A DNA stretch of 59,861 bases, from positions 102,574-162,434 of the forward strand of contig NEWT02000037.1 in assembly GCA_002869925.2 (NCBI GenBank), written 5' to 3'. Position numbers and translations under genes: made by a program. The notes below the pieces were generated by a model. It ran no database searches and was not told the DNA's origin. It saw only the letters and a list, made by a program, of their open reading frames with translations. The stretch is from Nitrospira sp. CG24A (GTDB lineage: Bacteria; Nitrospirota; Nitrospiria; Nitrospirales; Nitrospiraceae). Shown piece by piece: positions 36,968 through 58,189 of this stretch (position 1 is its first letter; each line of letters begins with the position of its first letter).

Positions 36968-37621
36968 ATGTGGCCATTCCCATTGGCGCTCCCGGCTTTC
37001 TTCTCGTTCTCGCTTGCCCTCATAATTTTCTTACTGCAACCTGTCTGGGTTACAGCCGCTGAGACCGCAGACATAGATGTTGGCCTGTATGCATTAGGCG
37101 CCTTTCCATCAGATCAAGGCCTCTTTGCTCAAGGGGGTAATCCTTCGGACGCCAGGATTGCTAATGGGGCTGGAGCTGGTATTAAGGCTTCGGTGTTTCC
37201 GCACGGTTTGGGAAACATCATCGGGATCGGACTGGAATCGTCTGGCCATGGAAGTGAGATCTCATTTTCTTCACCGGTGAACGCAGGCTCCTCGGTCAGT
37301 ACCAACCTCTGGGTCTTCAGTTCAATGGTGAATCTGACTCTTCGCTACCCGGGGAATGCGTTTGTTCCTTACATCGGTGTCGGAGGTGGTTATTCGAGCG
37401 GGGTGCTCAGCCATGCCGACATTCCCGGTCGGTCGGACGAGGATTTTGAAGGTTCATGGGCATTCGGCTCTCAATTCTTTGGTGGAGTGCAGGGTAATCT
37501 GACCGAAAAGGTATTTCTATTCAGTGAATACAAGTACTTCTCTGCCAACTATCACTGGAAGCAGCTCGCGCTGGATTTCCGCTCCCAGTCCGTCTTGTTT
37601 GGCATCGGGCTGCGCTTTTGA
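36968..37621 (+). CDS. Outer-membrane beta-barrel protein
   Basis: A 217-residue protein with a signal peptide (LALIIFLLQPVWVTAAE) and alternating beta strands typical of an OmpA/OmpW-type 8-stranded barrel: IDVGLYALGAF, GAGIKASVFPHGLGNIIGIGLES, NLWVFSSMVNLTLRYPG, VPYIGVGGGYSSG, FGSQFFGGVQGNLTEKVFLFSEYKYFS, and SVLFGIGLRF ending in Phe as outer-membrane proteins do. It is annotated on fold only. The stop (TGA) is followed at once by a short family II repeat. Confidence 0.8.
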   Translation: MWPFPLALPAFFSFSLALIIFLLQPVWVTAAETADIDVGLYALGAFPSDQGLFAQGGNPSDARIANGAGAGIKASVFPHGLGNIIGIGLESSGHGSEISFSSPVNAGSSVSTNLWVFSSMVNLTLRYPGNAFVPYIGVGGGYSSGVLSHADIPGRSDEDFEGSWAFGSQFFGGVQGNLTEKVFLFSEYKYFSANYHWKQLALDFRSQSVLFGIGLRF

Positions 37622-37682
37622 CAGAATGCTGAAAAAACCCGCCAGCAGCGTCCTCGCTGGACGGCCTTTTTGAGCATCCTGC
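37622..37682. repeat. Palindromic element family II, core-deleted copy (61 bp)
   Basis: CAGAATGCTGAAAAAACCCGCCAGC at the left and GCTGGACGGCCTTTTTGAGCATCCTG at the right (short of the whole arms) pair directly around a short spacer. It keeps only the outer arms: a GC stem flanked by A-run and T-run. Starts at the base after TGA 37619-37621. Confidence 0.8.
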
Positions 37683-37787
37683 GCGATTGTGTCGTCAGTG
37701 CCATTCTGTGATAGTTCATCGGTATGTTCTGTATGAATTGAGTTTTTTCGCAACCTGTTAAGTCGTCGTTCTCCGAAGTAAAGCGCG

Positions 37788-39653: not shown

Positions 39654-39662
39654 CGAAGCCAG

Positions 39663-39744
39663 GTTTGTTTAGTTCATCTGGTTGGTCTGGTTTGTTTGGT
39701 TGTAAACGAGAAAAACCAGATAAACCAAATAGACCAGACAAACG
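39663..39744. repeat. GTTTGTTT palindrome family, copy 1
   Basis: Left arm (GTTTGTTTAGTTCATCTGG, then GGTCTGGTTTG) and right arm (ACCAGATAAACCAAATAGA, then CCAGACAAACG) form an AT-rich foldback of about 82 bp between the converging mlaA and kbl stops. A second member is at 55742-55822. Confidence 0.7.
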
Positions 39745-39747
39745 TTT

Positions 39748-40947
39748 TTATTGGATGATGCCCAGTTCTCGACCAACTGTGGCAAAAGCGGCGCTGGCGC
39801 GTATCAGCTGTTCATGCTGGTGGGCTGCCGACATCTGGACACGAATTCTTGCCTGACCTTCCGGCACGACCGGGTAACTGAACCCTACGACGTACACTCC
39901 TTCTTCCAAGAGTCGCTCCGCCATTCTGGTGGCGAGTGCGGCGTCGCCCAACATCACCGGGATAATGGGGTGCTCGCCGGGAATGAGCCGGAATCCGAGG
40001 GCGGTGAGTTGCGCGCGGAAGAACGCCGCGTTCTCGCGCAGCCTGGCCCGCAACTGGTCGCCTTGAGCGACGAGGGTCATGGCTCGTCGGGCTGCTGCGG
40101 CAATGACCGGGGGCAGTGAATTCGAAAACAAGTAGGGTCTCGATCGCTGGCGCAACAGCTCAACGATCTCTTTTCGTCCGGACGTAAACCCGCCGGTCGC
40201 GCCGCCCAAAGTCTTGCCCAGGGTGCTGGTGATCATCTCGATCCGGTCGGCAACCGCGAAATGGTCCGGTGTGCCGCGTCCGTTGTGCCCGAGTACGCCG
40301 GTCGCGTGACTATCGTCGACGATTACGGCGGCATCGTACCGATCCGCCAGCTCGACGATTCGATCGAGTTTTGCGAGATCGCCGTCCATGGAGAAGACTC
40401 CGTCCGTCGCAATGAGGCGCAGGCGAGAGGATGCCGCATCACGCAGCTTGTTTTCCAGGTCCGCCATGTCGGAGTGGGCATAGCGAAGCCTGGTGGCCTT
40501 GCAGAGCCGGATGCCGTCGATCAGGCTGGCGTGGTTCAGCGCGTCGCTGATGACGGCATCGTGCTCGCCGAGGAGCGCCTCAAAGAGTCCGCCGTTGGCG
40601 TCGAAGCAGGAACTATAGAGGATCGTGTCTTCTGTACCGAGAAAGGTGCTGATCGACTGTTCGAGTTGTGTATGGAGATCCTGCGTGCCGCAAATGAATC
40701 GGACGGAAGCCATGCCGTAGCCATGTTCATGCAGCCCCGCAGTGGCGGCCTGTCTGATGTCGGGATGGTTGGCCAGCCCCAAATAGTTGTTGGCGCAGAG
40801 ATTGAGGACTTCACCTTGGGCTACTCGGACCTCAGCCCCTTGAGGACCAAGGATCTGCCGCTCGGATTTGTAGAGGCCTGCCGCACGGATGTCAGCGAGC
40901 CGCTCTGAAATAGTTTTCTTGAACGAGTCGTAGGCCATCTTCTTCAC
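39748..40947 (-). CDS. kbl: Glycine C-acetyltransferase (2-amino-3-ketobutyrate CoA ligase)
   Basis: A 399-residue pyridoxal-phosphate enzyme of the alpha-oxoamine synthase family: [90 protein letters not shown], and the PLP lysine in [13 protein letters not shown]. It splits 2-amino-3-oxobutyrate with CoA into glycine and acetyl-CoA, the second step of threonine breakdown. tdh lies directly upstream on the same strand, so the two form a pathway operon interrupted only by a palindromic repeat. An alternative ATG is at 40938. Confidence 0.95.
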
Positions 40948-40951
40948 TGAG

Positions 40952-41052
40952 CATACAGCCGTCAGCGATCAGCTGTCAGCTTCGGATGGACCAGAAGGAG
41001 AACGTTGTGCATGAATCCTGTGCTGATAGCTGTAGGCTGACCGCTGAAAGCT
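40952..41052. repeat. Palindromic repeat, CAGC(T/C)GTCAGC family, copy 2
   Basis: Left arm ACAGCCGTCAGCGATCAGC and right arm GCTGATAGCTGTAGGCTGAC, followed by CGCTGAAAGC, fold back over a short spacer, all within the tdh-kbl gap. Confidence 0.7.
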
Positions 41053-41054
41053 TT

Positions 41055-42089
41055 CTATGGGAACAGCACTACTTTTCCACATTGGCCTGAATTGATCAAC
41101 TCAAATCCCCGTGCGAAGTCTGTCAGGGGAAATGTATGGGTGATCACTGGCTTGATATTGAGTCCGGCCTGGAAGAGGCCGGTCAAGCGATACCAGGTTT
41201 TGAACAGTCGGCGGCCTGTAATGCCGTAGACGCGAATCCCTTTAAAAATGATTTCATTGGCGAGATCGCAATTGATCGGGCCGGTTGGAATGCCGAAGAG
41301 CGTGACGCGTCCGCCGTTCTTGACGGCGCTGAAGGCTTGATGCAGCGCCGTCGGGTTTCCCGACATTTCGAGCGACGCGTCGACGCCTTCGCCGCCGGTG
41401 ATGTCGCGAATGGCGGCAGCGATCTGGTCTGTGGTTTCCGTTTTGGCGTTGATGAGATGATCAGCCCCGACCTGTTTGGCAAGGTCCAGGCGGTACTGAC
41501 TGACATCTGAGGCGATGATGATGGCAGCGCCGGCTGTTCGTGCGACGGCGGCAGCGAACAGTCCTGTCGGACCACAGCCTGTAATCAAGATCGTCTGTCC
41601 GGTGAGGTCTTCAACTAACGCGGCGTCGACGGCGTTGCCGAGCGGTTCTTGGAGGCAGGCAAGTTCTGGTGGAAGGGTGGGCGAGGTCTTCCAGAGCACC
41701 GCCTCAGGCAAGGACACATATTCCGCGAACGACCCGTCGCGATCGACGCCAAGGATGCGATAATTCTTGCACACATGCGCTTGTCCGGTCCGACATTGGA
41801 AGCATTGGCCGCATGTGATGTGCGACTCAGCCGCGACGTAATCGCCCACTTTGGCGAGCGTGACGTCCGAGCCGACTTCCACGACCTCGCCGCACATTTC
41901 ATGGCCAATGATGCGTGGCGGCTGGATGCGGCTGTGCGCCCAGGGATCCCAATTGTAAATATGGGCATCGGTCCCGCAGAGCGAGGTGGCGGTGACGCGG
42001 ATGATGGTGTCGGTAGGGCCCGGTTTCGGATCCGGCCTGTCGGTGGCAATTAATCCTGGTTGAGCCGCTGTCTTGACGAGTGCTCGCAT
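41055..42089 (-). CDS. tdh: L-threonine 3-dehydrogenase
   Basis: 344 residues from ATG 42089, the family's usual length. It is a zinc-dependent medium-chain dehydrogenase: catalytic-zinc SLCGTDAHIYNWD and GHEMCGEVVEVG, structural-zinc cysteines CGQCFQCRTGQAHVC, the TDH-specific QEPLGNAVDAAL, and nucleotide-binding TILITGCGPTGLFAAAVA. It oxidises threonine to 2-amino-3-oxobutyrate for Kbl, encoded next. A longer ORF start at 42293 is rejected because homology begins at MRALVK. TATACAAT lies 8-15 bases before the ATG and could be the promoter's -10 region. Confidence 0.95.
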   Translation of the reverse strand: MRALVKTAAQPGLIATDRPDPKPGPTDTIIRVTATSLCGTDAHIYNWDPWAHSRIQPPRIIGHEMCGEVVEVGSDVTLAKVGDYVAAESHITCGQCFQCRTGQAHVCKNYRILGVDRDGSFAEYVSLPEAVLWKTSPTLPPELACLQEPLGNAVDAALVEDLTGQTILITGCGPTGLFAAAVARTAGAAIIIASDVSQYRLDLAKQVGADHLINAKTETTDQIAAAIRDITGGEGVDASLEMSGNPTALHQAFSAVKNGGRVTLFGIPTGPINCDLANEIIFKGIRVYGITGRRLFKTWYRLTGLFQAGLNIKPVITHTFPLTDFARGFELINSGQCGKVVLFP

Positions 42090-42343
42090 GGATTCATTGT
42101 ATACCACGGGTTTGATCCCGCCTACTCTTCCTGGGGAAACTGAGGCTGTCCGCGCTCCTGTCCACGATAACTTTCCGAGATTTTGACCTCGAGCAGCCTC
42201 TGCACAGTCAGGAGCTCTCAATGAAAAACAGGACAGTGTTTCCTGCAATTTCAATTGGTTGGATCCGTAAACGCAGGGGTTCACTCCCGTCATTGACCGT
42301 AGTGGGTTGCGCTCGGGTTCACAAGATCGGTAGGATGCGCCAT

Positions 42344-43339
42344 ATGAAGGCTCTGTCCCGCCAAGGCCTTATGGTAGCAGTTGGAATGTGTTGTGTAGCC
42401 CTCCTCTGCCCCAGCCTCGTTACACCCGCGCAGGCTGCATCATCGCCACAGACAGCATCCTCATCCGGTCCCACAAAGCGGTGGGCGCAGTTCGAGTTGA
42501 GCCAAGCGGGGTCGACGGGAGATCCCCAAACCGGCAAGCCCGTCACCCTGACGATTGTTCTTGGAGGCGTGCCGGTTGGAACCACTCCGGTGGTGGCGAT
42601 CTGTGAATCGATTCTGTTTCAAGCTCAAATGGTGACGCTCGAACCGGATGCCGAGTCGATGGTGTTGAAAGGGACGGTGACGCTCGAACCGATTCTCATG
42701 AGTCGGACGTCCGTGCAACCCAGGGCGGCGCGAGTGCAAGTGACGTTTTCGCGGTCCCGTCCGGACAAACTCGAACGGTTTATGCGGCGGGTCGTATATG
42801 TGACCATGGACCGTTCGGAGCCACCCAATGAAAATAGTGAGTTGCCGCCCACTCGCCCCGAAGAATCGCAGAGCGAGGATGTCATTTTAGATGAAGTGAA
42901 ACCGGCCGTAGACCCGGTCTCGACCGGTGCGTTAGCCGAGGAAGATCTGGTCCCGTTTCCCTCCCCCGGGGAGGGGAAGGCGTACTGGCAGCATGTGAGC
43001 CATCTTATCAGCCGGAGTTGGGCTCGCCAGGTCCGCGGAATCCGGCATGCGCCAAGCAGTGAGACAGTGAAGGTCCTGTTCAAGATGTTTCCGAATGGCC
43101 GCGCCCAGCTGGTCGAGATTGAGAAAGGATCCGGGACACGAGAAATCGACGAGGCTGGAATCCATGCGGTGATTAATGCCCAACCGTTCCTGCCGTTTCC
43201 CAGCGAGTTGGGAGAAGAGGTGGTGGACGTGCATGTTCGAATGCGGACCGGTAGTCGGGGGCGGTCTCTTGAGATACAGTCGGTCGGGAGCCGGTCAACC
43301 AGCAAGCCTGACACGGCGAGCCAGCCTTCGAAGAAATAG
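42344..43339 (+). CDS. Exported protein with TonB-like C-terminal domain
   Basis: 331 residues from ATG 42344. A signal peptide (VAVGMCCVALLCPSLVTPAQA) is followed by ~200 residues rich in Pro/Glu with beta-rich stretches (FELSQAGSTGDPQTGKPVTLTIVLGG). The C-terminal ~90 residues resemble a TonB/TolA-type domain: YWQHVSHLISRSW, VKVLFKMFPNGRAQLVEIEKGSGTREIDEAGIHAVINAQPFLPFP. It lacks an N-terminal membrane anchor of TonB, so it is probably periplasmic. The start is between ATG 42335 and 42344. Confidence 0.7.
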   Translation: MKALSRQGLMVAVGMCCVALLCPSLVTPAQAASSPQTASSSGPTKRWAQFELSQAGSTGDPQTGKPVTLTIVLGGVPVGTTPVVAICESILFQAQMVTLEPDAESMVLKGTVTLEPILMSRTSVQPRAARVQVTFSRSRPDKLERFMRRVVYVTMDRSEPPNENSELPPTRPEESQSEDVILDEVKPAVDPVSTGALAEEDLVPFPSPGEGKAYWQHVSHLISRSWARQVRGIRHAPSSETVKVLFKMFPNGRAQLVEIEKGSGTREIDEAGIHAVINAQPFLPFPSELGEEVVDVHVRMRTGSRGRSLEIQSVGSRSTSKPDTASQPSKK

Positions 43340-43415
43340 TAGGCTACGGAAAGACCATGTTGGCACGGTGAAAATTCGATGGCCTGCACATCTAGGACAA
43401 CAGAAGAATACCGCA

Positions 43416-43539
43416 CAGGATGATCAAAAAGGCCGCCCAGCAAGGCCGCAGCGAGTGAAGGACCGAGGCGTACCCTCAGGGGTACGTTGAGGGTCTGAAC
43501 GATGCGAGAACGCTGCTGGCGGACGTTTTCAGCATCCTG
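43416..43539. repeat. Palindromic element family II, full copy
   Basis: Ends CAGGATGATCAAAAAGGCC and TTTTCAGCATCCTG are inverted; the central hairpin CGTACCC-tcag-GGGTACG is at 43469-43486. It ends 16 bp before the yceI start codon, and the bases following it hold that gene's ribosome binding site. Confidence 0.85.
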
Positions 43540-43555
43540 CCGGAAGGAGTGATTC

Positions 43556-44167
43556 ATGCTGAAGAAAAGAGGGGCGCGTTGGTTCGTGTTCTTGCTGCTG
43601 GAAGCGGTGATTTTGTTCCCGTTGGTGGTTCACGCTGAACCAGCTCGTTGGAACCTGGATACTGAACACTCGACGATCGAGTTTCGTGTCGCACACATGG
43701 TCGTATCGAAGACCACTGGCCGATTCACGGACTATACAGGCTTTGCCGATATGGACGCTGAGGCAGGCACTGTGACGGCCATTGAAGCCACCATTAAAGC
43801 TGGTTCAGTGAGTACGAACCACGAAAAACGTGATGCTCACTTACGGAATGCCGATTTTCTCGACGTGGAACAATACCCGACGATGATCTATAAGTTGAAG
43901 AGCTATAAGAAATCCGCAGAGGGCTTCACGGCGGTAGGAGACCTCACGCTACATGGTGTGACCAAGGACGTCACCCTGGTGGGCCGTTATAACGGGGCGA
44001 CAAAGGATCCCTGGGGTAATGTCAGGGCCGGCTTCAGCGCGGAGGGGAAGCTCAACCGCAAAGACTTTGGTTTGGTCTGGAACAAGACGCTGGATAGCGG
44101 CGGACTCGTCGTCGGCGACGAGGTTCAGATACGACTTGATATAGAATGTATCAAAACGAAGCCCTAG
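43556..44167 (+). CDS. YceI-family periplasmic protein
   Basis: A 203-residue lipocalin-like protein: signal peptide ending VVHA-EP, then ARWNLDTEHSTIEFRVAHMVVSKTTGRFTDYTGF, AEAGTVTAIEATIKAGSVSTNHEKRDAHLRNADFLDVEQYPTMIYK, GDLTLHGVTKDVTLVG, and LNRKDFGLVWNKTLDSGGLVVGDEVQI. YceI proteins bind polyisoprenoid lipids. GGAAGGAG precedes ATG 43556. The stop TAG is followed at once by a family II repeat end (CAGGATGCTGAAAAA). Confidence 0.92.
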   Translation: MLKKRGARWFVFLLLEAVILFPLVVHAEPARWNLDTEHSTIEFRVAHMVVSKTTGRFTDYTGFADMDAEAGTVTAIEATIKAGSVSTNHEKRDAHLRNADFLDVEQYPTMIYKLKSYKKSAEGFTAVGDLTLHGVTKDVTLVGRYNGATKDPWGNVRAGFSAEGKLNRKDFGLVWNKTLDSGGLVVGDEVQIRLDIECIKTKP

Positions 44168-44325
44168 CAGGATGCTGAAAAAGCCCGCCAGCATATGAAG
44201 ATCGGTACGCGTGAGACGTGAAAAGTGAAAGGTAAAACGTAGGATTGCCGAAAGCCCTTTCTTTAAAACCTTTCACCTTTTACGTTTCACCTTTCACGAA
44301 CGACAAGGACGGCCTTTTTGAACAA
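44168..44325. repeat. Family II element with a GTGAAAGG palindrome nested inside
   Basis: Outer arms CAGGATGCTGAAAAAGCCCGCCAGC (about 25 bases) at the left and GGACGGCCTTTTTGAACAACCTG at the right belong to family II. Between them (44209-44298) lies a foldback of a different family: GACGTGAAAAGTGAAAGGT at the left arm and ACCTTTCACC...GTTTCACCTTTCACG at the right. One element has replaced or entered the core of the other. Confidence 0.75.
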
Positions 44326-44341
44326 CCTGTGTGGTGTTGGC

Positions 44342-45343
44342 ATGAAGGCCATGGTTCTGGAGCGTACCGCGGATGTGGGAACTGCCCCGCTTCAGCTTCG
44401 CGAACTTCCAATACCAGAGCCAGGTCCTGGAGAGGTTCTGGTTCGCCTCACTGTCTGCGGGATTTGCCGGACGGATCTCCACGTCATCGAAGGTGAACTA
44501 CCAGACCCGTTGCTTCCGCTCATTCCTGGCCACCAAGCTGTCGGGATGGTGAGTCAGGTCGGCGCCGGTGTAAGTGAGCGGACGGTCGGCGAGCGAGTCG
44601 GGGTCGCCTGGCTGCAGCATACGTGCGGCCACTGCGAATTTTGCACAAGCGGGCGCGAGAACCTGTGCGAGCGCGCCAGATTTACCGGCTATCAGGTCGA
44701 TGGCGGGTACGCGGAGTATGCGCTTGTCCCGGAAGCATTTGCCTATCCGATTCCACCGGTCTTCAGTGATGCAGAAGCGGCCCCCCTCCTCTGTGCCGGG
44801 ATCATCGGCTACCGCGCGTTACGCCTGAGTGGAATCCAGCCGGGCCAACGGCTCGGTCTCTATGGGTTTGGCGCATCCGCTCACATTGCCATTCAGATTG
44901 CTCGGCATTGGGGCTGTCAGATCTATGTCAGTTCGTTGAAATCGGAGCATCGACGTCTCGCGCATGAATTGGGCGCCAAGTGGGTTGGTGGAGCGGCGGA
45001 CCTGCCACCGGACAAGCTCCATAGCTCAATCATCTTTGCGCCAGCCGGGGAATTGGTCCCGTCTGCCTTGCGTGCATTAGAGCGAGGCGGCACGCTCGCC
45101 CTCGCTGGTATTCATATGACGCCGATTCCCTCTCTCAATTATGATCGCGAGGTTTTTGGAGAGCGGGTCATTCGAAGCGTCACAGCCAATACGAGGCAGG
45201 ACGGGCTCGATCTCCTGCGCGAAGCTGCTGCAATCCCCATCAAACCACGCACCTTGTCATTCCCCCTCGCTGATGCCAACCGCGCGCTGCAAGAGTTAAA
45301 AGCCGGGCGCTATTCAGGAGCCGGCGTGCTCGTGCTCTCCTAA
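44342..45343 (+). CDS. Zinc-dependent alcohol dehydrogenase
   Basis: 333 residues from ATG 44342. It has medium-chain dehydrogenase motifs: [13 protein letters not shown] and [12 protein letters not shown] (catalytic zinc), [15 protein letters not shown] (structural zinc), [19 protein letters not shown], and [17 protein letters not shown] for nucleotide binding. The sequence is of the AdhP/zinc-binding group that oxidises or reduces aliphatic alcohols and aldehydes; the substrate is unclear. The first eight codons of an upstream TTG start (44318) are inside a repeat and are not counted. No clear ribosome binding site is visible. Confidence 0.88.
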
Positions 45344-45442
45344 CCAGTCCTGAAAAAGTGAGTGTTGCTTCTGGTCCCCGGCGTGCCATTGGGCTTTCTC
45401 GAAAACTGAATTTGCTTCTTCAAGACAGGCGACCAGTTCATA

Positions 45443-45471
45443 TTGAGGCAAATTACACGTACTCTGATAAA
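45443..45471 (+). promoter_or_regulatory. Possible promoter of the lipoprotein gene at 45563
   Basis: TTGAGG at 45443-45448 and GATAAA at 45466-45471 with a 17-bp spacer, about 90 bp before the start codon. Both boxes are imperfect. Confidence 0.3.
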
Positions 45472-45562
45472 TAGGGTGCTTTCCAAGGGTTTCGCCCAAT
45501 GAGCGAGGCGTTTTCCCGAGGTCTGTTACTGCTATTGGAGTAATCACTGTAAGGAGATTCGG

Positions 45563-46258
45563 ATGTGGGCAAGAATGCTACTGGTTCTCGTGTGCGTGAG
45601 CGGAGCGCTTGTCGGCTGCGCGAAAGACCCAATACTGATAACGGCCGAAAACCGTTCGTTGCTCAAGAGTCCCCCATTCTATTCTGCGCATGGCTCTATT
45701 CCAAAATTTTACTATGCTTCACGCGGAGAGCAAACGACCGCGTTTTTGGGAGGGCTTCTCTTTAGTCTTCTGTTCTTGCCTGTCGCGATGGCGATGGAGA
45801 ATTCCCATGATGACCTTGCGGGGCTCTATCGCTTGGAAAACCCTGGCCTAAAGATTGAGGAGGATCTTACTCGACGTATTGTCAAAGAATATGATTTGAA
45901 AGACATCCGCCCGAATGAGGTCGGTGGATCTTGGAGCGAACCAGAGGATCTGAAGCGTCGTTTTTCACAGGGGTTGTTTCTTGAAGTACGAAGTGATCAA
46001 TGGGGGCTTCAACCCTCTTCGTGGTCGCAGTTTCATGTCGTTTTGAAATCGAGCGCACGACTGGTATCAGTTCAGGATGCCAAAGAGATATGGTATGACA
46101 CTTGTACCTCTGAAAAGATTGATGGGGAGCGAGACCCGAAGCTAGAGGATTTAAAAGCGAAGGACGGAGAACTATTAAAGACGATGGTGAAAGAGGCTAC
46201 AGAAGCTTGTGCAAATGAGCTGTGGCAAAAACTCCAAATGGTTGCGATGCCGAAATAA
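45563..46258 (+). CDS. Lipoprotein of unknown function
   Basis: A 231-residue protein with leader MWARMLLVLVCVSGALVGC ending in a lipobox. A second hydrophobic stretch AFLGGLLFSLLFLPVAMAM lies at ~residues 54-72. The rest is a soluble alpha/beta region with no recognised family (LTRRIVKEYDLKDIRPNEVGGSW; FHVVLKSSARLVSVQDAKEIWYDTC; two Cys). TAAGGAG lies 7 bases upstream of ATG. It is convergent with the HemD-like gene. Confidence 0.7.
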   Translation: MWARMLLVLVCVSGALVGCAKDPILITAENRSLLKSPPFYSAHGSIPKFYYASRGEQTTAFLGGLLFSLLFLPVAMAMENSHDDLAGLYRLENPGLKIEEDLTRRIVKEYDLKDIRPNEVGGSWSEPEDLKRRFSQGLFLEVRSDQWGLQPSSWSQFHVVLKSSARLVSVQDAKEIWYDTCTSEKIDGERDPKLEDLKAKDGELLKTMVKEATEACANELWQKLQMVAMPK

Positions 46259-46291
46259 GTCTCCGTGCAGGAAGGTGGTATTTGGAAGAAA

Positions 46292-47137
46292 TCAGTTGGG
46301 CCGTCTTTTCCTATTCAGAGTAGCGCAGGCCTGCTCGCTGGTCTCTTTGACCAGCACTCCCATCTTCGGGTGTGACGGTTCGAAGTCGATCGGCCACTCG
46401 TGGTGGCGGAGGCGTTCGCTTGCGGTGGGGCCGATGGAGGCGACGACCATTTTCTTGAGTGCTGCACGAAAGGGCTCCACCTTCCCGTCTTTCTCTAATA
46501 CCTGCATGACATGATCGACTTGGGCGGCGTTGGTGATAAGGAGCACCGCGACTTTCCCGGCGATGATGTCGTCGAGTGCCTGTCTGAGTGCTCCCAGCTC
46601 TTCCGGGAGGGCCCAGCGATAGATGGGGACCTGGAAGACTTTGGCCCCTCGCTGGTTCAAGGCTTCCAGTAAATCCAGATTGGATACTCCGTACTCCTGC
46701 ACAGCGACGCGCAACCCCTTCACCGGCCGGTACTCATCCAACGTAGAGATCAGATCGACCCAGGTATTCGGTTCGGGTACCGTCAACGTCGGTTGGAGGC
46801 CGAATGATTTAAGGGCTGCGACCGGTTTGGGTCCTCGGGCAACTATGGCCGTCTGTTCGAGCGCTGCCACTATCGATGCCCAGGGATAGCGTGTCTTGAG
46901 GAGATCGAACAGCGCGGTGGTGCCGACGCCGGTCAACAGGATAAGCATATCGACTCGCTCGGTCGTCAGCTGAACCCCAAACTTCAACGCCGCGGAATTG
47001 TCATCCAATGGAATTTCACGGAGGGCAGGAGTGACGAGCGGATTTCCCCCATGGCGCTCGATGAGCCGGGCGATCTCCGCCGCCATGCGGCTCTCGAAGG
47101 CGGCGACGGTGAGACCATTGAATCCGACGGTAGCCAT
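46292..47137 (-). CDS. hemD: Uroporphyrinogen-III synthase-like protein
   Basis: A 281-residue two-domain protein of the HemD fold: GLTVAAFESRMAAEIARLIERHGG, VDMLILLTGVGTTALFDLLK, AIVARGPKPVAALKSFG, LRVAVQEYGVSNLDLLEALNQRGAKVFQVPIYRW, AVLLITNAAQVDHVMQVL, VVASIGPTASERLRHHEWPIDFEPSHPKMGVLVKE. Uroporphyrinogen-III synthase closes the tetrapyrrole ring on the way to haem, sirohaem and cobalamin. The gene is apart from other haem genes, so a paralogue with another role cannot be excluded. Confidence 0.85.
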   Translation of the reverse strand: MATVGFNGLTVAAFESRMAAEIARLIERHGGNPLVTPALREIPLDDNSAALKFGVQLTTERVDMLILLTGVGTTALFDLLKTRYPWASIVAALEQTAIVARGPKPVAALKSFGLQPTLTVPEPNTWVDLISTLDEYRPVKGLRVAVQEYGVSNLDLLEALNQRGAKVFQVPIYRWALPEELGALRQALDDIIAGKVAVLLITNAAQVDHVMQVLEKDGKVEPFRAALKKMVVASIGPTASERLRHHEWPIDFEPSHPKMGVLVKETSEQACATLNRKRRPN

Positions 47138-47226
47138 TTATAGGTTCGAAGCAAAAAGCTCAGTGGACTGTTTGTTCAAGATGGGGAACGTGGGCATCGT
47201 ACCATAATTGGCCAGTACGCGTGACC

Positions 47227-47391
47227 GATGAGGTCCCTCAGATTTCTTATACCTCTCTTCATGAGGGTGGCCGAGGCTGCCCTTTACTGCGCGCATCGAA
47301 CGAGCACATTCTGATCGTGCGCGTTCTGCGAGCAAGAAGGGCACCTGGCCATCCCCCCTCCGCTGGCGGCCTTTTTCAGCATCCTGCTAGG
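47227..47391. repeat. Family II variant, one arm plus alternative core
   Basis: The right end GGCGGCCTTTTTCAGCATCCTG is a normal family II arm. The interior, containing GCCCTTTACTGCGCGCATCG and GTGCGCGTTCTGCGAGCAAG, is nearly identical in reverse to 283-425. The left arm is not recognisable, so this copy is truncated. Spurious ORFs occur in it on both strands. Confidence 0.7.
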
Positions 47392-47445
47392 GTTTTCAAT
47401 TGACGGAGCAGAGGGTGTCTCCCTACTATACGAATTCAATCGAGG

Positions 47446-47892
47446 ATGTTTATGAGTGCTCCGCTCCACCGAGGATTACGCCATGTGGCGCTGCGCGTCA
47501 CGAATATCGTGCGCTCTCGCACGTTCTATGAACAGTTGTTGGGAATGAAGGTGGTCTGGGAGCCAGACCCCGATAACGTGTATTTCAGTTCTGGGTCGGA
47601 TAATTTCGCCTTGCACCAGATTCCACTGCCCGATCTCGCATCGTATCAACCCTTGAAGGGGCAATCGTTGGATCACATTGGCGTAATCCTTGAGAGTCCT
47701 GGGGCCGTCGACCGAATGTATCGGGAAATCGAACCGCGGCTGCTGCAGCTGGGTGGCCGGGTTGTGACACCACCAAAGCAGCATCGCGACGGCAGCTATT
47801 CGTTTTACTTTTCCGATCCCGACGGGATTGTCATTCAAGCATTGTACGAACCCATCATCAGCAAGCTGGAGTGGGTGAAAGGTAAAACGTGA
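47446..47892 (+). CDS. VOC-superfamily (glyoxalase/dioxygenase-fold) protein
   Basis: A 148-residue vicinal-oxygen-chelate protein with two beta-alpha-beta-beta-beta modules: LRHVALRVTNIVRSRTFYEQLLGMKVVWEPDPDNVYFSSGSDNFALHQ, and SLDHIGVILESPGAVDRMYREIEPRLLQLGGRV...SYSFYFSDPDGIVIQALYEP. Metal ligands H13-like, H68-like and E-like positions are plausible. The last codons and the TGA stop lie inside the GTGAAAGG palindrome (47875-47940), so the end of the protein (WVKGKT) is repeat-encoded. Confidence 0.85.
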   Translation: MFMSAPLHRGLRHVALRVTNIVRSRTFYEQLLGMKVVWEPDPDNVYFSSGSDNFALHQIPLPDLASYQPLKGQSLDHIGVILESPGAVDRMYREIEPRLLQLGGRVVTPPKQHRDGSYSFYFSDPDGIVIQALYEPIISKLEWVKGKT

Positions 47893-47940
47893 AAGGTAAG
47901 TCAGCCACGTACGTTTTACCTCTCACGTTTCACCTTTCAC
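47875..47940. repeat. GTGAAAGGT/ACGTTTCACC palindrome, copy 2
   Basis: The left arm (GTGAAAGGTAAAACGTGAAA) and right arm (TTTTACC...CACGTTTCACCTTTCAC) fold back around a short loop containing ACGTACGT. Related units: 44209-44298, 51771-51834 and 58849-58926. It encodes the VOC gene's last codons and stop, and ends just before the next start codon. Confidence 0.8.
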
Positions 47941-47944
47941 GAGT

Positions 47945-49585
47945 ATGAAGATCTGGGACAGTCTGCCGAAACAGCAGTATCTCAGCCTGGCGCCCTGGGC
48001 ATGGGTTCAATTAGAGAGCGCGGACCCTCCTGGGCCTTTTCCCTTTATTGCAGGGGTGGCGCCTGAAGTTGTCGCCAGTCTCCATGAGGCCCATGGTCTC
48101 CTCTCCAGCGCGCTCGATACGGCTATCAGCGATGTCTTTTCTAAACGGGCTCCGATCGACGATCCTGATCGCCAGCGTCGGCTGGAAGATGCGTATGCGG
48201 AGGTGATTAGAGCCCATCCCCATCTGCAACAGCACATTCGTTGCGGGCGGAAGCCGGACGGGACGTTTCACTGGGAGTTTCCAACCGATTCCTCAAAATC
48301 CTCCACGGTCACGAATGGCGGGCTTCGGATCTTCCATTCCGTGAGGCGGCAGGCGATTCCAATCGGGTTCGACCAGCGTGAGATGGGGCCGCTGGTGGGA
48401 AAACTCCTGGGGTTCTTGGACGGCACCCATCAGACTGAGGAGATCAAGACGGTGGTAGCGACCTCGGGGCGGGATGGTGAACGTCTACTGACGCGACTGA
48501 TCGAGTCCCTTCACCAGCATGAGTGCTTGGTCAGCTCGATCATCTCCTCCGTCAGATCCCATTGGTTGGAAACGCTGCACGATCAAGACACGGTCCACCT
48601 CGGTCATGCCGCGCTGCTCTATCGGCAACGGGACCACGTGCTGTGGTTCGATCCCTGGCTGCTCCCCTGGTTTGCGGAGTCTTCCGTTCCGTCGCTCTGG
48701 GGGTCGCTGCTGCCCAAACCGGCTGCCGTCTTCTTGACCCACGATCATGACGATCATGTGGATCCTCGCACGCTTTTGCACCTGCCCAAGGACACGCCGA
48801 TCATCGTGCCGAGCCGAAGGAATCGGCGCACCCTCTCCTACGATTATCTGTCGCTCTTGCGGGAACTGGGGTTCGGACATGTGATCGAATTGGCGCATGG
48901 AGATGGTTGGGCGTTCGATGGAGGGGCCGTGTATGCTGTGCCGTTCTACGGCGAAGATCCATGCGACCTGGAGATGCCGCGTAACTGTTACCTTATCGTC
49001 GATCGTGGCTATAATGTGCTTGTGCATGCGGATAGCGGGCCAACGAATAGTGGCAGGTCAGCCCTCAAGGATGGCGTGATCCAATCGCTCGCGCAGAAGC
49101 ATGGGGCGATTCCACTGGTGTTTGCCTCGCAACAACAATTGCTCGAAGTTCGTGGCCATGCGGCCCACGCACCCTTGTCTCATCCAGGGAAATGGCTCGA
49201 CGTGGGAGAAAACGGCTATCTGACGAACGCGTATCTTGCCGATGTGTGCGCGGCAGCACAGGCCAAGCTCTTCGTGTCCTATGCCACCGGTGGCGCAGAG
49301 TGGTATCCGGACCATCTCTCGTTCATGTTCAGCCGACGGAATCCAGCGCGCACCGCGCTGTTGACGGCTCATTGGGAACGGCCTGAAGCTCTCAAGGAAC
49401 TTCTCGTGACGCAGGGATGCGAGTATCATCACAGCCATGCGTTGGATCTGTTTCGTCGCACGGCTGATGGGCAGGTGAAACCGTTGACGACAGGGGAAGC
49501 TCTGACGCCCCTCTCTCTCCACCGGCTTGACCATGGCGATCCTCTGTTTATCACCGCGAACAGCCGCACTGCGCCATCTCGATAA
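47945..49585 (+). CDS. Metallo-beta-lactamase-fold hydrolase with N-terminal helical domain
   Basis: A 546-residue protein. The first ~210 residues are mostly helical and unrecognised; residues around 140-160 ([19 protein letters not shown]) resemble a small winged-helix of the PqqD type. From ~210 there is an MBL domain: [15 protein letters not shown], the metal-binding [34 protein letters not shown]. The C-terminal residues have further His. The HxHxDH motif supports a two-metal hydrolase; the substrate is unknown. The ATG follows the palindrome with no strong ribosome binding site. Confidence 0.8.
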
Positions 49586-49601
49586 ATCGAAAGGACTGAC
49601 T

Positions 49602-50633
49602 ATGGCCGTACATAAGAAGCAGCAAGATCCCATCCTCGTCACCGGCGTCGCAGGATTTATCGGCTTCCATACCGCGATCAGATTGCTGGAGCGAGGTGAG
49701 CAGGTAATCGGACTCGATAACGTCAACGACTACTACGACGTACGACTGAAGAAGGCGAGACTGGCGAAGCTGAAACCGTTCAAGTCGTTTTCGTTCACGA
49801 AGCTTGATCTAGCCAATCGGGTCGGGATGAAGAAGCTGTTCGCGAAGCATCCGATCCGACGCGTGGTCCATCTGGCGGCGCAGGCAGGTGTGCGGTATTC
49901 GCTGGTGAACCCGCATGCCTATACGGACAGCAACATCGAAGGGTTCTTAAACATATTGGAAGGCTGCCGGCATGCGAAGGTGAAGCACCTCGTCTATGCC
50001 TCGTCGAGTTCTGTGTATGGCGGCAATACGCAGATGCCGTTTTCAATTCATGACAACGTCGATCACCCTGTCTCTCTCTATGCGGCCAGCAAAAAGGCCA
50101 ATGAACTCATGGCCCATTGCTATGCGCATCTGTATCGGGTTCCCTGCACGGGGCTGAGGTTTTTCACGGTGTATGGGCCCTGGGGAAGACCCGATATGGC
50201 GCTCTTCATATTTACGAAGGCGATCTTGGAGGGAAAACCGATTGAGGTCTACAACCATGGAAAGATGCGCCGCGACTTTACCTATATCGATGACATCGTT
50301 GAAGGCGTGATTCGGACACTCGATCACCCAGCCACGCCGAACCAGGCCTGGTCCGGAGATAGACCGGATCCCGGGACGAGTTCAGCGCCGGCCAGGATCT
50401 ACAATATCGGGAATCATCAGCCGGTCGAGCTACTCCACTTCATCGAGGTGCTGGAGCAGGAGCTAGGAAAGAAAGCGGTGAAGAAGTTGCTGCCGATTCA
50501 GCCGGGCGATGTGCCGGCGACGTATGCCGATGTCGAAGATCTGACTCGAGACGTTGGGTTTGCCCCAGCGACGCCGATCGAAGAAGGTATCGCGCGTTTT
50601 GTGCAGTGGTATCGGGACTTCTACAAAAAGTAA
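49602..50633 (+). CDS. UDP-glucuronate 4-epimerase-like SDR
   Basis: 343 residues from ATG 49602 (AAAGGA upstream). An extended short-chain dehydrogenase: [58 protein letters not shown], the catalytic [11 protein letters not shown] Ser and Y-x-x-x-K in [10 protein letters not shown], and [23 protein letters not shown]. The DNVNDYYD and GVRYS patterns are specific to UDP-glucuronate 4-epimerases, which make UDP-galacturonate for surface polysaccharide. It overlaps the MBL gene's frame only if a longer upstream start is used. A terminator follows. Confidence 0.93.
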
Positions 50634-50669
50634 GGGACGTCAAACCATTCATGGCCTGACGTCCCTTCT
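50634..50669. terminator. Terminator hairpin shared by converging genes
   Basis: GGGACGTCA (50634-50642) pairs with TGACGTCCC (50657-50665) and is followed by TTCTC; the first base is right after the epimerase stop. On the minus strand it can also serve the exported-protein gene at 50689. Confidence 0.6.
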
Positions 50670-50688
50670 CGGATACGTTGATCGTCAG

Positions 50689-51258
50689 TTACGGACAGCC
50701 AATCGGTATAAATCCGCGCCCGAAAATCTTGGACAGAGTGACGTAGCGAGCATTGTCGTAAAACGAATAGCTCGCTCCGCGCTGATTTTTTCCAGAAAGG
50801 TCTCCGCCGTACGAGGGGTCTGTCCCATAAAAGAACCCGCCGCGAGTTTTCTCGTTGAGATGTAGCCATTCTCCATATTTCGAACAGACTTCAGCCTGGA
50901 CCGATCCTGATGAGGCGATGCTAGCATGCCAATCGCTAGCCCAATCAGGTGTCTGCCCTCCACTGGCCACGCCGGTATGATTGCGGTCGGAGTGCGAGGG
51001 AATGTCGTAGTGAGGAGCTGTAGCCACGGTGGGGCGATAGGTTGGCATGTCTTCCAGCGATGGCACAATCGACAGTTCTTTTAAGGTCATCAGCGTACAA
51101 CCAGGTAAATCTTTGTTGGTATAGAGGGGGCTCCCATCGGCTTGAGGGCATTCCCGCATCAGGAATGGGTCGGAGGCGATGGTGGTATCGGCTAATACCG
51201 ATGTTGAGGAAAGAACAAGAGCCGTCGCGGCGATTATGAGCAGATGGGCAGGTTGCAT
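50689..51258 (-). CDS. Exported protein of unknown function
   Basis: 189 residues from ATG 51258, placed by GGGGGAGG upstream. A signal peptide ends SVLA-DT. The mature part has ECPQADGSPLYTNKDLPGC, a motif of small exported proteins with a Cys pair and a DUF4124-like start, then a Pro/Thr-rich linker, then WHASIASSGSVQAEVCSKYGEWLHLNEKTRGGFFYGTDPSYG and a basic end with a last Cys. There are four cysteines in all. No firm family. Confidence 0.65.
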   Translation of the reverse strand: MQPAHLLIIAATALVLSSTSVLADTTIASDPFLMRECPQADGSPLYTNKDLPGCTLMTLKELSIVPSLEDMPTYRPTVATAPHYDIPSHSDRNHTGVASGGQTPDWASDWHASIASSGSVQAEVCSKYGEWLHLNEKTRGGFFYGTDPSYGGDLSGKNQRGASYSFYDNARYVTLSKIFGRGFIPIGCP

Positions 51259-51849
51259 AAAGTGCCTCCCCCGAGATGGTGAAATAGACAGGGTCTGTTT
51301 CATCGGTCACCTGTCCGAATTCATATTCACCGATGGTAGTGACAAGCTATTCTGTCAGAGCCAAAGCTGTCTATGCATCTTTCGAGGGGGGTCGTGCTGC
51401 ATATGTGGGTGGCGGCAAGATGGCTCCAATGGCCGATTGGCCTGCATTTTCGGTTCGAACAATAGAAAGAATGTGTATTCCAAATGTATTGGAATAAGAT
51501 GTACTTGGTCAGTTGTTCCAAAGAGAGGCAGAGGCCGGCGAGTGGCCCTGTATCCTCGATGTCTTTGCTCAGTGGATGTCGACTCGGTGATTCTCCTGCA
51601 GCACATTTCGGGGCATAGTGATCAGAGGTGCGGGGGTCCCGTCATGGCGCAGACTATGGTCTGTCTCGCTCAATCATTTCATGAACTCATCGTTTCGTAG
51701 CCGTCTCAGCTGAACAACATCTTTGCCTTGTTCCCTTCTTATTGCTAAGGTATTCTCCGGCTTAAATCCTGAAACGTGGAGCGTGAGAGATTCGAGGAAT
51801 TTTCCTCGCACGGCCCCCTCTCACTCTTCACGTCTGAATAATTTCCACT
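51259..51849. other. Gene-poor region with a palindrome and a repeat unit
   Basis: No convincing gene. A plus-strand ORF at 51179-51700 is cysteine-rich without family, start site or codon bias and is rejected. At 51476-51496 lies a perfect inverted repeat TATTCCAA-atgta-TTGGAATA, operator-like. A palindromic unit (51774-51833) precedes the antiporter gene by 16 bp. Confidence 0.5.
51771..51834. repeat. GTGAAAGG-related palindrome, copy 3
   Basis: ACGTGGAGCGTGAGAG (51774-51789) pairs with CTCTCACTCTTCACGT (51818-51833) with two mismatches; an inner CGAGGAA-tt-TTCCTCG stem at 51793-51808 completes the foldback. It lies 16 bp before the antiporter start. Confidence 0.65.
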
Positions 51850-53856
51850 ATGACCGACTACGGTGTGCTCGCAAATCTGCTTGTCATTTTCACGGCGTCG
51901 ATCGCCGTCGTCTTTGTATTCCATCAGTTCAGACTTCCCTCGATCGCTGGATTCTTGGTTGCCGGCGCGCTCATCGGACCCTATGGGTTGAATCTCATTT
52001 CTGACATCGAAACGGTTCGAGCATTGGCGGAGATCGGGATTGTGCTGCTGCTCTTCACCATCGGCATCGAATTTTCGTTGGTGCATTTAGTTTCCATGCG
52101 CCGTCTCATGTTTTTGGCTGCACCCATCCAGGTTGGGGGCGTGCTGTGCATCGCGTGGCTCGGGGCGATGCTTGCCGGACTGTCTTGGCAGCAGGGAATT
52201 TTCTGGGGATTTCTTTTCTCGCTGAGCAGCACGGCGATTGTGTTAAAGACCTTGGCAGAACGGGGAGATAGCGACTCCATTCATGGCCGAGCCACGATCG
52301 GCATTCTCGTCTTTCAGGATTTGGCCGTCGTTCCCATGATGTTGTTGACGCCGATTCTTGGGGGCCAATCGGAAGGAAGTGCGCTGGCGATTCTGCTCAC
52401 GTTGGGGGAGTCGGTCCTCGTCGTCGCGCTCGTCATTGGCGCATCCTGGTATCTGGTCCCCAAGGTGTTGGGACATATCGTCCGTAGCCGCAGCCGCGAG
52501 TTGTTCTTGCTGACGATCATTGTCTCCTGCCTCGGTATCGCGTGGCTCAGCTCACTCGGCGGTCTTTCGTTGGCGCTGGGCGCGTTCATCGCCGGATTGG
52601 TCATTTCAGAATCGGAATACAGCCATCAGGCCATGGCCGAAGTGCTGCCATTTCGCGACAGTTTCAACAGTCTATTTTTCGTGTCAATCGGTATCCTCAT
52701 GGACTGGCGGGTATTATTTTCCCATCCGTTGCCGGTCGCCGGACTACTTGCCGCTGTTCTGTTGGTGAAGTGTGTCGCCGGCGCTGGAGCCGTCCTGTTG
52801 GCGGAGGTTCCTCTCCGTTCAGCGATTATGGTGGGCATCGCTCTCGCTCAGGTCGGAGAGTTCAGCTTCTTGTTGGCGCAGCAAGGGCAGGAGAGCGGTT
52901 TCTTGCGGGGCGATCCGTATCAGGTGTTTCTCGCGGTCTCGGTGCTTTCTATGATTGTGACCCCTTTTCTCATGCAGTGGTCGCCTCACTTGGCTCGTCG
53001 TGCAGAAGCGTGGCAACGGCTTCGTCATTGGTTGCCGAGTCACACCACCGGCCATGTCGTGCAGACCGAAGGAAAACAGATTCGGGTCAAGGATCACGTC
53101 ATTATTGTGGGGTATGGGTTGAACGGGAGGAATCTTGCCCGCGTTCTCGGCGAGACCGAGATTCCCTATCTGGCATTGGATCTCGATGGCGATATCGTCA
53201 GCCGGGAGGCGAAACACGGAGTGCCCGTCTATTATGGCGATGGCACGAATCCAAACGTGCTACGGCACATGAAAATCGAGGATGCGAAGGTGTTGGTGGT
53301 CGCCATTTCTGATCCGTTTATCACCAGACGAGCCGTGCAGGTGGCCAAGGGCCTCAACCCCCAACTCCATGTCGTCGTACGAACTCGCTATCTGCGGGAA
53401 TTGGAGGAGCTGCACCAACTCGGCGCGGACGATGTGGTGCCGGAGGAGTTCGAAACATCCATTGAGATTTTTTCTTTAGTGCTCCACACCTACAAACTGC
53501 CGCAGGAATTTGTGATGGAGAAAGCAAAGCAGATTCGCCGTGAAGGGTATGCCTTGCTTCGTCGCAGCGAATTGCCTGAGCTTTCGCATCATCTGCGTGG
53601 CGGCACATTGGCCGATGCGGCAGTTGAAACCTTCCGTATTGATGACGATTCACCTGCGCAGGGGAAGACGTTGGCTGAAATTGCTCTCCGCCCACGCACC
53701 GGCGCTTCGATCATTGCCTGGACGCGTGCCGGGGTGACGCAAGCCAATCCGTCAGAGAATACTCGGTTGATGGCAGGCGACATCGTGGTATTAATCGGCT
53801 CGCGCGTGCAGATTCGGCAGGCGATGGAACTGTTAGTGCAGATGGGTGAGAAATGA
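51850..53856 (+). CDS. CPA2-family cation:proton antiporter with RCK domains (KefB/YbaL-like)
   Basis: A 668-residue protein. Residues ~1-390 form about 12-13 membrane helices of a Na+/H+ exchanger domain (LPSIAGFLVAGALIGPYGLN; EIGIVLLLFTIGIEFS; GFLFSLSSTAIVLKTLAERG; FQDLAVVPMMLL). Residues ~415-540 are an RCK N domain with HVIIVGYGLNGRNLARVLGE, LDLDGDIVSREAKHGVPVYYGDGTNPNVL. The C-terminus is an RCK C domain (ETFRIDDDSPAQGKTLAEI...ENTRLMAGDIVVLIGS). It exchanges K+ or Na+ for protons, gated by ligand at the RCK ring. There is no KefC-type regulator nearby. Confidence 0.93.
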   Translation: MTDYGVLANLLVIFTASIAVVFVFHQFRLPSIAGFLVAGALIGPYGLNLISDIETVRALAEIGIVLLLFTIGIEFSLVHLVSMRRLMFLAAPIQVGGVLCIAWLGAMLAGLSWQQGIFWGFLFSLSSTAIVLKTLAERGDSDSIHGRATIGILVFQDLAVVPMMLLTPILGGQSEGSALAILLTLGESVLVVALVIGASWYLVPKVLGHIVRSRSRELFLLTIIVSCLGIAWLSSLGGLSLALGAFIAGLVISESEYSHQAMAEVLPFRDSFNSLFFVSIGILMDWRVLFSHPLPVAGLLAAVLLVKCVAGAGAVLLAEVPLRSAIMVGIALAQVGEFSFLLAQQGQESGFLRGDPYQVFLAVSVLSMIVTPFLMQWSPHLARRAEAWQRLRHWLPSHTTGHVVQTEGKQIRVKDHVIIVGYGLNGRNLARVLGETEIPYLALDLDGDIVSREAKHGVPVYYGDGTNPNVLRHMKIEDAKVLVVAISDPFITRRAVQVAKGLNPQLHVVVRTRYLRELEELHQLGADDVVPEEFETSIEIFSLVLHTYKLPQEFVMEKAKQIRREGYALLRRSELPELSHHLRGGTLADAAVETFRIDDDSPAQGKTLAEIALRPRTGASIIAWTRAGVTQANPSENTRLMAGDIVVLIGSRVQIRQAMELLVQMGEK

Positions 53857-53961
53857 ATGGGGGCGCGAGACAAGCGCGATTCGAAGGCTGAAGGCCAGAG
53901 GTCGGAGATCCGAACACTTCAGCCTGCTTCACCAGTCGCGCTTTCCCCGCCAGTCTCGCCG

Positions 53962-55050
53962 TCAACTCTTCCAGCGAAGTGTGACCCGTTCTTTGAGTGG
54001 GTGGTCGAGTGGCTGCCCAGTTTGCACCGATGCGAGGTGTGCGGCTTTCAACTTGTAGTACCACTTCGCCGGCGTATCGGCGTCGTCGATGAGCATTAAG
54101 GCAGGTTTGTAGCGCAAACCCACCGCCTGACGCTCCATCGCCTCCCGATCCTGTGTCATGAAAATATTGGCGAAGTAGCGAAAGATGGTCTTGGAAAATG
54201 GAACCCAGCTGAGACAGTTCCATGCCGCGGTAAAATCGATGCGGCATTGCTGGTCACTGATCGGCGTGACCGTGGCGCGGCTCGACACGAAGAGGGATCC
54301 GCACTGGACGAACTCGAATCGCTGGTTGGGCAGCACAAAGTCGATGGTGGTCGTCAACGGCCCTCCGTAAAACAGGTTCAGAAGCTTGTACGGTCCGCTG
54401 TTCTTAGAGGGAGCGTGAGGGGCCATGCGGAAGCCGTGGGGGATCGGTTCAAAGGTCTTGGCCTTTTCGTGGATGCTTGCCTGGCTCCGCCACCAGGAAC
54501 TTTGATGGACAAAGGGGCCGTGAGCCGGGTCCATTAGGCCGACGATCCCGTCGTCGATGGTACAATCTAACAGCGTCGAAATGTGAACCATCCGATAAGG
54601 AGAGGAGGGGAGCGGTAGCGGCGGTACATCTGGGATGGTCTGATTCAGTCGTTGAGGGTCAGGAACAAACACCCACACATAACCATCCCGCTCGCGACAA
54701 GGGTAGGTCGTGATGCCGATTTTGTCGGCTTGAATAGGGGAACCTTCGACCAGCGCGGGAATCTCCCGGCAACGGCCTCCCTGGTCGAACTGCCAACCAT
54801 GGTAGGCGCATTCGACACAGTCGCCTTTCATTTTGCCGAATGACAGCGGCATTCCACGATGTGGGCAAATGTCGCGCATGGCCGCGACCTGACCCTGTGA
54901 GGTTTTGCAGACGAGAATCGGGAGGCCTAACAGGATGGTTCCCTTTAGGCTATCAGGAGCGAGTTCACTGCTCAGACAAGCAGGGTACCAGAAGCCGAAG
55001 AGCGGTGCGCTCTTGGATGGTTTAATTTCGGTGATAAGGCTGCTGTTCAT
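53962..55050 (-). CDS. Rieske-type aromatic ring-hydroxylating oxygenase subunit
   Basis: A 362-residue protein. The Rieske [2Fe-2S] ligands are C62, H64 (CPHRGMPLSFG) and C81, H84 (CAYHGWQFD). The mononuclear iron site fits D174, H177, H182 (MDPAHGPFVH, D-x2-H-x4-H). The first residues PLFGFWYPACLSSEL are a typical start. Oxygenases of this size act on small aromatics, sterols or chlorophyll-like rings; the substrate is not evident. It is alone, convergent with the antiporter gene and divergent from the DsrE gene. Confidence 0.9.
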   Translation of the reverse strand: MNSSLITEIKPSKSAPLFGFWYPACLSSELAPDSLKGTILLGLPILVCKTSQGQVAAMRDICPHRGMPLSFGKMKGDCVECAYHGWQFDQGGRCREIPALVEGSPIQADKIGITTYPCRERDGYVWVFVPDPQRLNQTIPDVPPLPLPSSPYRMVHISTLLDCTIDDGIVGLMDPAHGPFVHQSSWWRSQASIHEKAKTFEPIPHGFRMAPHAPSKNSGPYKLLNLFYGGPLTTTIDFVLPNQRFEFVQCGSLFVSSRATVTPISDQQCRIDFTAAWNCLSWVPFSKTIFRYFANIFMTQDREAMERQAVGLRYKPALMLIDDADTPAKWYYKLKAAHLASVQTGQPLDHPLKERVTLRWKS

Positions 55051-55128
55051 GAGAAGAATGGAGTGGCAGGTGACATCGGTTCACTTGGAACTATATCCGC
55101 CGTGCCGGGTGAGGTCAAGGTCGTTGCC

Positions 55129-55158
55129 TTGACAAGAAAAAGAAACGGGGACTATAGT
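55129..55158 (+). promoter_or_regulatory. Sigma70-like promoter of the DsrE-TusA pair
   Basis: TTGACA at 55129-55134 and TATAGT at 55153-55158 with an 18-bp spacer, 56 bp before ATG 55214. Confidence 0.6.
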
Positions 55159-55213
55159 TAATTTTATACTCAAATTGCTGCACGCATGCGAACCTGACGG
55201 GAAAGAGGGCGTC

Positions 55214-55744: not shown

Positions 55745-55822
55745 TTTATTTGGTTCATTTGGTGTGGGGCTTCAGTTAACTAAACAAACGAAATCAACCA
55801 AACAAACCAGAGAAACGAGACG
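55742..55822. repeat. GTTTGTTT palindrome family, copy 2
   Basis: Left part (GTTTATTTGGTTCATTTGG) and right part (AAATCAACCAAACAAACC) form an imperfect AT-rich foldback. It starts with the TAG of the DsrE gene and ends just before the tusA start. Confidence 0.65.
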
Positions 55823-55824
55823 CC

Positions 55825-56070: not shown

Positions 56071-56133
56071 GCTCACAGACAGAGCTTTCACAGGCCAGAA
56101 CCTTCCATAAACGATCTCAATGTCAACATAGCC

Positions 56134-56261: not shown

Positions 56262-56269
56262 TAGTGGTG

Positions 56270-56316: not shown

Positions 56317-56323
56317 ATTCGTG

Positions 56324-58119: not shown

Positions 58120-58189
58120 GCACCCTTCAAGAACTTGCCCGTTCGGTCGATCGCATTTCTGCCAAGATCTTCAAATAGTTACCTCATCC

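Follow-up and report, generated by a model that had tools for sequence, protein, structure and literature searches.

Why does a dispersed repeat begin at the very base that follows a stop codon, and what might it do there? Within the window, the 59,861-nucleotide stretch of the Nitrospira sp. CG24A genome that was analysed, a YceI-like open reading frame (43556-44167, plus strand) ends in a TAG codon (44165-44167) that also forms the last three bases of a CTAG target motif. A repeat, here called family II, starts immediately behind it. This copy (44168-44329, plus strand) retains a left arm (44168-44183) and an inner arm (44314-44329); its right end is lost, a hairpin module of the GTGAAACG type has taken the place of its interior, and the copy reaches to within 12-13 nt of the next start codon.

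Family II copies in the window

A preliminary description of the window placed family II exactly at six stops. Five of these stand (593, 12546, 29195, 37621 and 44167), but the sixth, at 1497, is a TGA codon (1497-1499) that lies 4 nt away from the left end of a degenerate copy (1368-1492, minus strand). The stops touched at 593, 12546, 29195 and 44167 are TAG, and the one at 37621 is TGA. On the minus strand, the left end (590) of the copy at 507-590 adjoins the TAG (591-593) of ORF 591-1466, and the left end of a degenerate copy at 12423-12545 adjoins the TAG at 12546-12548. On the plus strand, the copy at 29196-29318, a hairpin in RNA folding, lies directly behind the TAG at 29193-29195. 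A 61-bp copy (37622-37682) had been taken to keep only the outer, terminator-like part of the repeat; the short copy is real, its hairpin spanning 37622-37681, but a tail and a decayed right end carry the copy on to about 37757. Given this remnant, whose right repeat ends before TTAA, and given that the G009 ortholog has a 125-bp hairpin at the same stop (TGA at 37619-37621, TAG in G009), the copy (37622-37757, plus strand) is best read as the product of an internal deletion.

Family II is also found away from stops, at 43416-43539 and 56135-56259 (both minus strand). G008 and G009 lack the latter copy at the corresponding position, and this empty-site comparison is unfit to define a duplication because the orthologous sequence is too diverged. 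At 47252-47386 (minus strand), a left end (47386) with a CTAG flank is joined to an interior replaced by another repeat module. A module with the sequences GTGAAACGTGAAA / TTTCACGTTTCAC occurs at 44200-44300, 47911-47942 and 58896-58927, both inside family II hairpins and standing alone.

Family II is an IS5-type MITE whose target can hold the stop

Family II is almost certainly a transposon whose duplicated target includes the stop codon. It has the structure of an IS5-type MITE of Nitrospira, a short non-coding unit of about 205 bp with terminal inverted repeats of 15-16 bp, CAGGATGCTGAAAAA on the left and TTTTTCCGCAGCCTG on the right; in the 99 copies that bear both ends, the modal length bins are 190-209 bp. 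The full order is YTAR, left repeat CAGGATGCTGAAAAAG, interior, inner arm CTTTTTGAGCATCCTG, a tail of about 60-80 nt found by flank alignment beyond the hairpin, the right repeat and YTAR again. The target-site duplication is 4 bp of YTAR, mostly CTAG: the left and right flanking 4-mers are identical in 33 of the 99 copies versus 16.2 in shuffles, and in 30 of the 47 copies with YTAR on both sides versus 20.9 (p = 0.0016).

An orthologous comparison places the stop within this duplication. At C29:210232, the source genome carries an element of 165 bp that splits GTCGGTCTAG from CTAGTCGG, and the empty site is a single CTAG in three relatives (G017, G004 and G012) and a single TTAA in G008; the TAG inside the duplicated CTAG closes an open frame of 276 codons. 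C29:205140 provides a second empty site; a further comparison, at C29:482306, was set aside owing to an irregular 7-bp overlap. In the mechanism that we propose, an IS5-type transposase would insert family II into YTAR, usually CTAG, duplicating these 4 bp. Because YTAR contains TAG or TAA, an insertion at a stop regenerates that stop; with the stop restored, the protein is unchanged and the repeat begins exactly behind it.

The candidate parents are two insertion sequences of 1318 and 1319 bp (L278 and L281) located in other Nitrospira species. They have YTAR flanks and ends (CAGGCTGCGGAAAAAC) that match the family II right repeat, and their transposases bear PF05598 and PF01609 and score 267-281 bits against the IS5 model NF033581 (NCBIfam; cut-off 140). 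The source genome itself yielded no intact parent element bearing the exact family II ends. Three further loci (L283, L285 and L293) share a sister end, CAGGCTGTTGACAAAC, with CTAG flanks. The IS5 of E. coli duplicates Py-T-A-Pu, most commonly CTAG (PMC5493358), and so has the target of family II, but it is autonomous and not the family II parent. The claim that these repeats are mobile is borne out by their terminal repeats and YTAR duplications, by the empty sites and by a parent whose ends are identical.

A REP or REPIN-type element moved by a RAYT or IS200/IS605 (Y1) transposase was first suggested by a TAR flank on one side only; the repeat is also palindromic, and the genome holds three Y1 transposase matches. 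This idea was dropped once the tail and right repeat were found: none of the three Y1 loci has family II ends, and the element duplicates its target and matches an IS5-type parent, which makes such an origin highly improbable. An IS110 gene lying between two family II ends (C29:154587-155880) was likewise rejected as a parent, being a passenger inserted inside a copy. This IS110-family RNA-guided transposase gene (L068:14587-15880, G000:C29:154587-155880; NF033542, 218 bits) sits on the GTACGCCT side of the inner hairpin; CT is found at either junction, and family II may be a target of the IS110 element. At C29:205140, two IS5-type end subfamilies, CAGGAGGCTGAAAAA and CAGGCTGTTGAC-like, occupy the same CTAG stop, the G008 ortholog having the other end type from the source genome (L351/L357).

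The family is abundant and widespread in Nitrospira. Its end motif has about 150 matches per strand in the source genome, which is of Nitrospira type and 3.36 Mb in size (at most one mismatch; zero for the reversed control), and a 26-base end pattern occurs at no fewer than 80 loci of the species genomes scanned, all of those listed being Nitrospira/Nitrospirota records. A DNA query spanning several copies found matches in 32 of the 32 Nitrospira genomes searched, the source genome included, and an Rfam search returned no match.

Stops are hit as targets, not as stops

Placement was analysed in 848 kb of the source genome (contig C29 and parts of C31) with ORFs of at least 80 codons. There, 33 of 91 left ends lie at distance 0 behind an ORF stop and 46 lie within -1 to +4 nt, as opposed to one of 78 inner arms at distance 0. 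The expectation that the repeats lie closer to stops than chance would put them was confirmed against uniform placement in the same intergenic regions, with 28 exact matches versus 0.14 expected, counts that rest on home-made gene calls probably missing short genes (coding fraction 76%).

Such adjacency at many genes could also arise if placement were directed to stop codons as such, in the manner of a site-specific 3' UTR module, whatever the sequence. The choice of stop codon tells the two apart: TGA makes up 37% of stops and is touched once in 46 cases, the trinucleotides touched being TAG 35, TAA 10 and TGA 1 versus a genome usage of 198, 209 and 236 (p = 6e-10). Together with CTAG, TTAG and CTAA flanking copies away from gene stops, this contrast leaves directed placement with hardly any likelihood and argues for a target motif that incidentally serves as a stop. 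The two ends also differ, as 110 of about 180 TAR-flanked left ends coincide with the in-frame stop of an ORF that is 80 codons or longer, compared with 15 of 57 right ends (p = 7e-6); in the source genome alone the difference (33 of 46 versus 3 of 8) is not significant (p = 0.10).

Family I uses a similar target

The window also contains a second family, family I, an IS1380-type MITE with a target similar to that of family II. Its flanks are CTAG or TTAA. Locus L310, which encodes an IS1380 transposase (NF033539, 394 bits), has the same ends as family I, with the left end CCCGCATTATTCATGA after CTAG and an imperfect right end (TCGTGAATTATTCAGG) before CTAA. Family I had been reported directly behind the stops at 102 and 5524, and both placements are exact: one copy (103-278, strand not assigned, as for the other two) has IS1380-type ends CCCGCATTATTCATGA and CTAG on both sides, behind the TAG at 100-102, and another (5525-5713) directly follows the TAA at 5522-5524 with a left flank of TTAA. 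A third copy (19432-19607) has ATAA on both sides. In G015, family II is separated from the YceI stop by a family I copy flanked by CTAG left and right.

The arms of family II form a covarying hairpin

The long hairpin of family II, which has A5/T5 runs, arises by pairing of the left end with an inverted copy of itself inside the element. The GC stem bracketed by A and T runs that had been noticed earlier (AAAAAG...CTTTTT) is real. The left arm pairs with the inner arm with one constant G-G mismatch, a mismatch that the scans defining the two arms also required. RNA folding, RNAalifold included, gives one long and very stable stem (z -4 to -7), the outer arms are paired in the minimum-energy fold of 60 of 64 copies, and in 61 of 64 copies 4 or more of the 7 nt tested after the stem are T. 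In full-length copies, joint compensated changes between left and inner arms number 12 versus 0.8 in shuffles, an excess also seen in further copies. The same full-length copies give 3 versus 2.9 for left and right repeats and 1 versus 1.4 for inner arm and right repeat, indicating that it is the hairpin, and not the transposon ends, that coevolves.

Based on covariation with its internal control, on orientation and on retention, the hairpin is very probably under selection; that the selection is for termination, as the stem flanked by A5 and T5 and the gene context suggest, is somewhat favoured. The covarying arms, their orientation toward gene 3' ends, the rarity of copies in divergent gaps and their persistence at orthologous stops lend the terminator reading indirect support. 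Several features weaken the putative terminator reading. First, a short-loop terminator consensus scan of 40000-59861 found no site in the family II hairpins there (17 sites overall versus 18.4 in shuffles). Second, in the predicted fold the T-run is paired with the A-run, and the loop is large and usually long. Third, in 6 of the 35 co-directional cases, among them the 44168 copy, fewer than 50 nt separate the end of the hairpin from the next start codon; if the hairpin terminates, such copies would leave little room for a promoter.

The main alternative is an effect of the hairpin on translation or on the stability of the mRNA instead of on transcription: a strong stem placed 0-4 nt past the stop would slow terminating ribosomes or block 3' exonucleases. 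This would fit the concentration of left ends within a few nucleotides of stops and the great stability of the folds, and would also account for copies just before a co-directional gene; there is a precedent in the E. coli REPs lying at most 15 nt from a stop, which stall ribosomes according to work cited in PMC12306157. The exact distance to the stop is, however, already explained by the target duplication, the A5/T5 runs retained in nearly all copies are unneeded for stability alone, and few intact copies (5 of 64) lie between divergent genes. We therefore regard this alternative as unlikely, and keep to the reading of the hairpin as a putative terminator.

Orientation and retention point to selection

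The arrangement of copies relative to genes is biased. In co-directional gaps, the left end is turned toward the 3' end of the upstream gene in 40 cases and reversed in 13 (p = 0.0003), and it faces a gene 3' end in 48 of 64 intact copies (75%). A terminator working in both directions had been proposed; the A5/T5 symmetry is compatible with it, but the copies are strongly oriented, so that function or retention is asymmetric. The 848 kb hold 91 left ends, 78 inner arms and 14 right ends, meaning that the hairpin half outlives the right repeat. At orthologs of the YceI stop, the left end is directly behind the stop in 20 of 24 relatives, 16 of them with a pairing inner arm.

These same data bear on the possibility that family II has no host function, inserting at random into YTAR and surviving where harmless, with paired changes arising by templated repair between the arms; the covariation could indeed alternatively stem from quasi-palindrome templated mutation. 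Target motif and gene density by themselves favour stops, 15 of the 46 left ends at stop trinucleotides are not at long-ORF stops, and family I, with a like target, touches stops too (of 54 ends, 32 have a TAR flank and 12 are in frame with an ORF 80 or more codons long). Gene stops nevertheless make up only about 15% of non-coding YTAR (194 of about 1307) versus about 70% of stop-flanked left ends, and the biased orientation, the survival of the hairpin half over the right repeat and the arms kept across the genus at one stop likewise speak against this possibility. An element without host function is accordingly improbable, slightly more so than an effect on translation or stability, and we return to a hairpin kept by selection.

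The interior of the hairpin is exchanged. At the YceI-stop orthologs it consists of several unrelated hairpin modules. In G003 (L269) and G021 (L252), the orthologs of 44167 lack the left end of family II and have other inverted-repeat modules directly behind the same TAG. At C29:210232, the source genome and G009 share the same tail with different interiors; the tail in G010 is different, most likely because this stop was hit independently there. At 39661-39780, a long GGTTTGTTTGGTT inverted repeat unrelated to family II is present in the source genome and G008, and the G009 ortholog has family II in its place; terminator-like hairpins of different families replace each other in this gap.

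Discussion

The account that we consider probable as a whole is that of an IS5-type MITE with a stop-containing duplication and a hairpin kept as a likely terminator. Once the element is in place, co-transcription of the left and inner arms would give a long hairpin with a T-run just behind the gene. The hairpin is kept, mostly facing the upstream gene, while the tail and right repeat decay, with selection as the presumed cause. The likely role of the hairpin would be in terminating the transcript or shielding its 3' end, an intrinsic terminator being the most likely form. The preliminary description overlooked the stop within the duplication, the approximately 80 bp beyond the hairpin to the right end and the fact that two different insertion-sequence families behave alike.

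SPRITE of Streptococcus pneumoniae, a MITE-like repeat proposed to have been recruited as a terminator, is the closest precedent (PMC3049150); a 2024 review of prokaryotic MITEs, citing SPRITE, deems MITE terminators conceivable (PMC10969869). SPRITE is likewise a dispersed MITE-like repeat with a terminator-like fold, enriched near gene 3' ends, but its sequence and phylum are different and no target duplication could be established, whereas family II has a duplication that holds the stop, an identified parent family and covarying arms. In Pseudomonas syringae, MITEPsy1 (ISPsy2-related, about 100 nt; PMC3189936) shares the IS5 type, a 4-bp duplication (CTAG or YTAA) and 18-nt repeats ending CTGAAAAAGCC. 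It has 6 copies per genome and no reported association with stops or terminators, in contrast to the roughly 150 copies, the internal inverted arm forming a hairpin and the genus-wide retention at 3' ends seen for family II. Haemophilus USS and Neisseria DUS also form terminator stems behind genes from genome-wide repeats (PMC5217627, PMC3049150), but these stems are uptake signals and family II is a transposon with a target duplication. REPs, too, are repeated hairpins close behind stops (PMC12306157); they measure 20-40 bp and in many genomes are tied to Y1/RAYT enzymes, unlike family II. The open-access literature searched contains no account of the Nitrospira family I or II repeats. As far as that literature shows, the stop in the duplication, the covarying hairpin of an end and its internal copy, the exchange of interiors at orthologous stops and the occurrence of more than one independent insertion at a given stop are new.

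More speculatively, the IS5 and IS1380 families may have independently seeded Nitrospira with stop-duplicating MITEs, the IS5 type re-inserting at the same stops across species and swapping interiors, such that 3' ends throughout the genus would draw on a mobile, exchangeable pool of terminators; we hold this broader picture to be possible, short of probable.

A duplicated target that holds the stop is a simple route for a transposon to settle at gene ends without harm to the protein. Filled and empty orthologous stops found side by side in close Nitrospira offer a natural experiment on the birth of bacterial terminators, to which independent insertions at the same stop add. If the proposed role is confirmed by transcript mapping, the annotation of Nitrospira 3' ends should count these repeats as functional parts.
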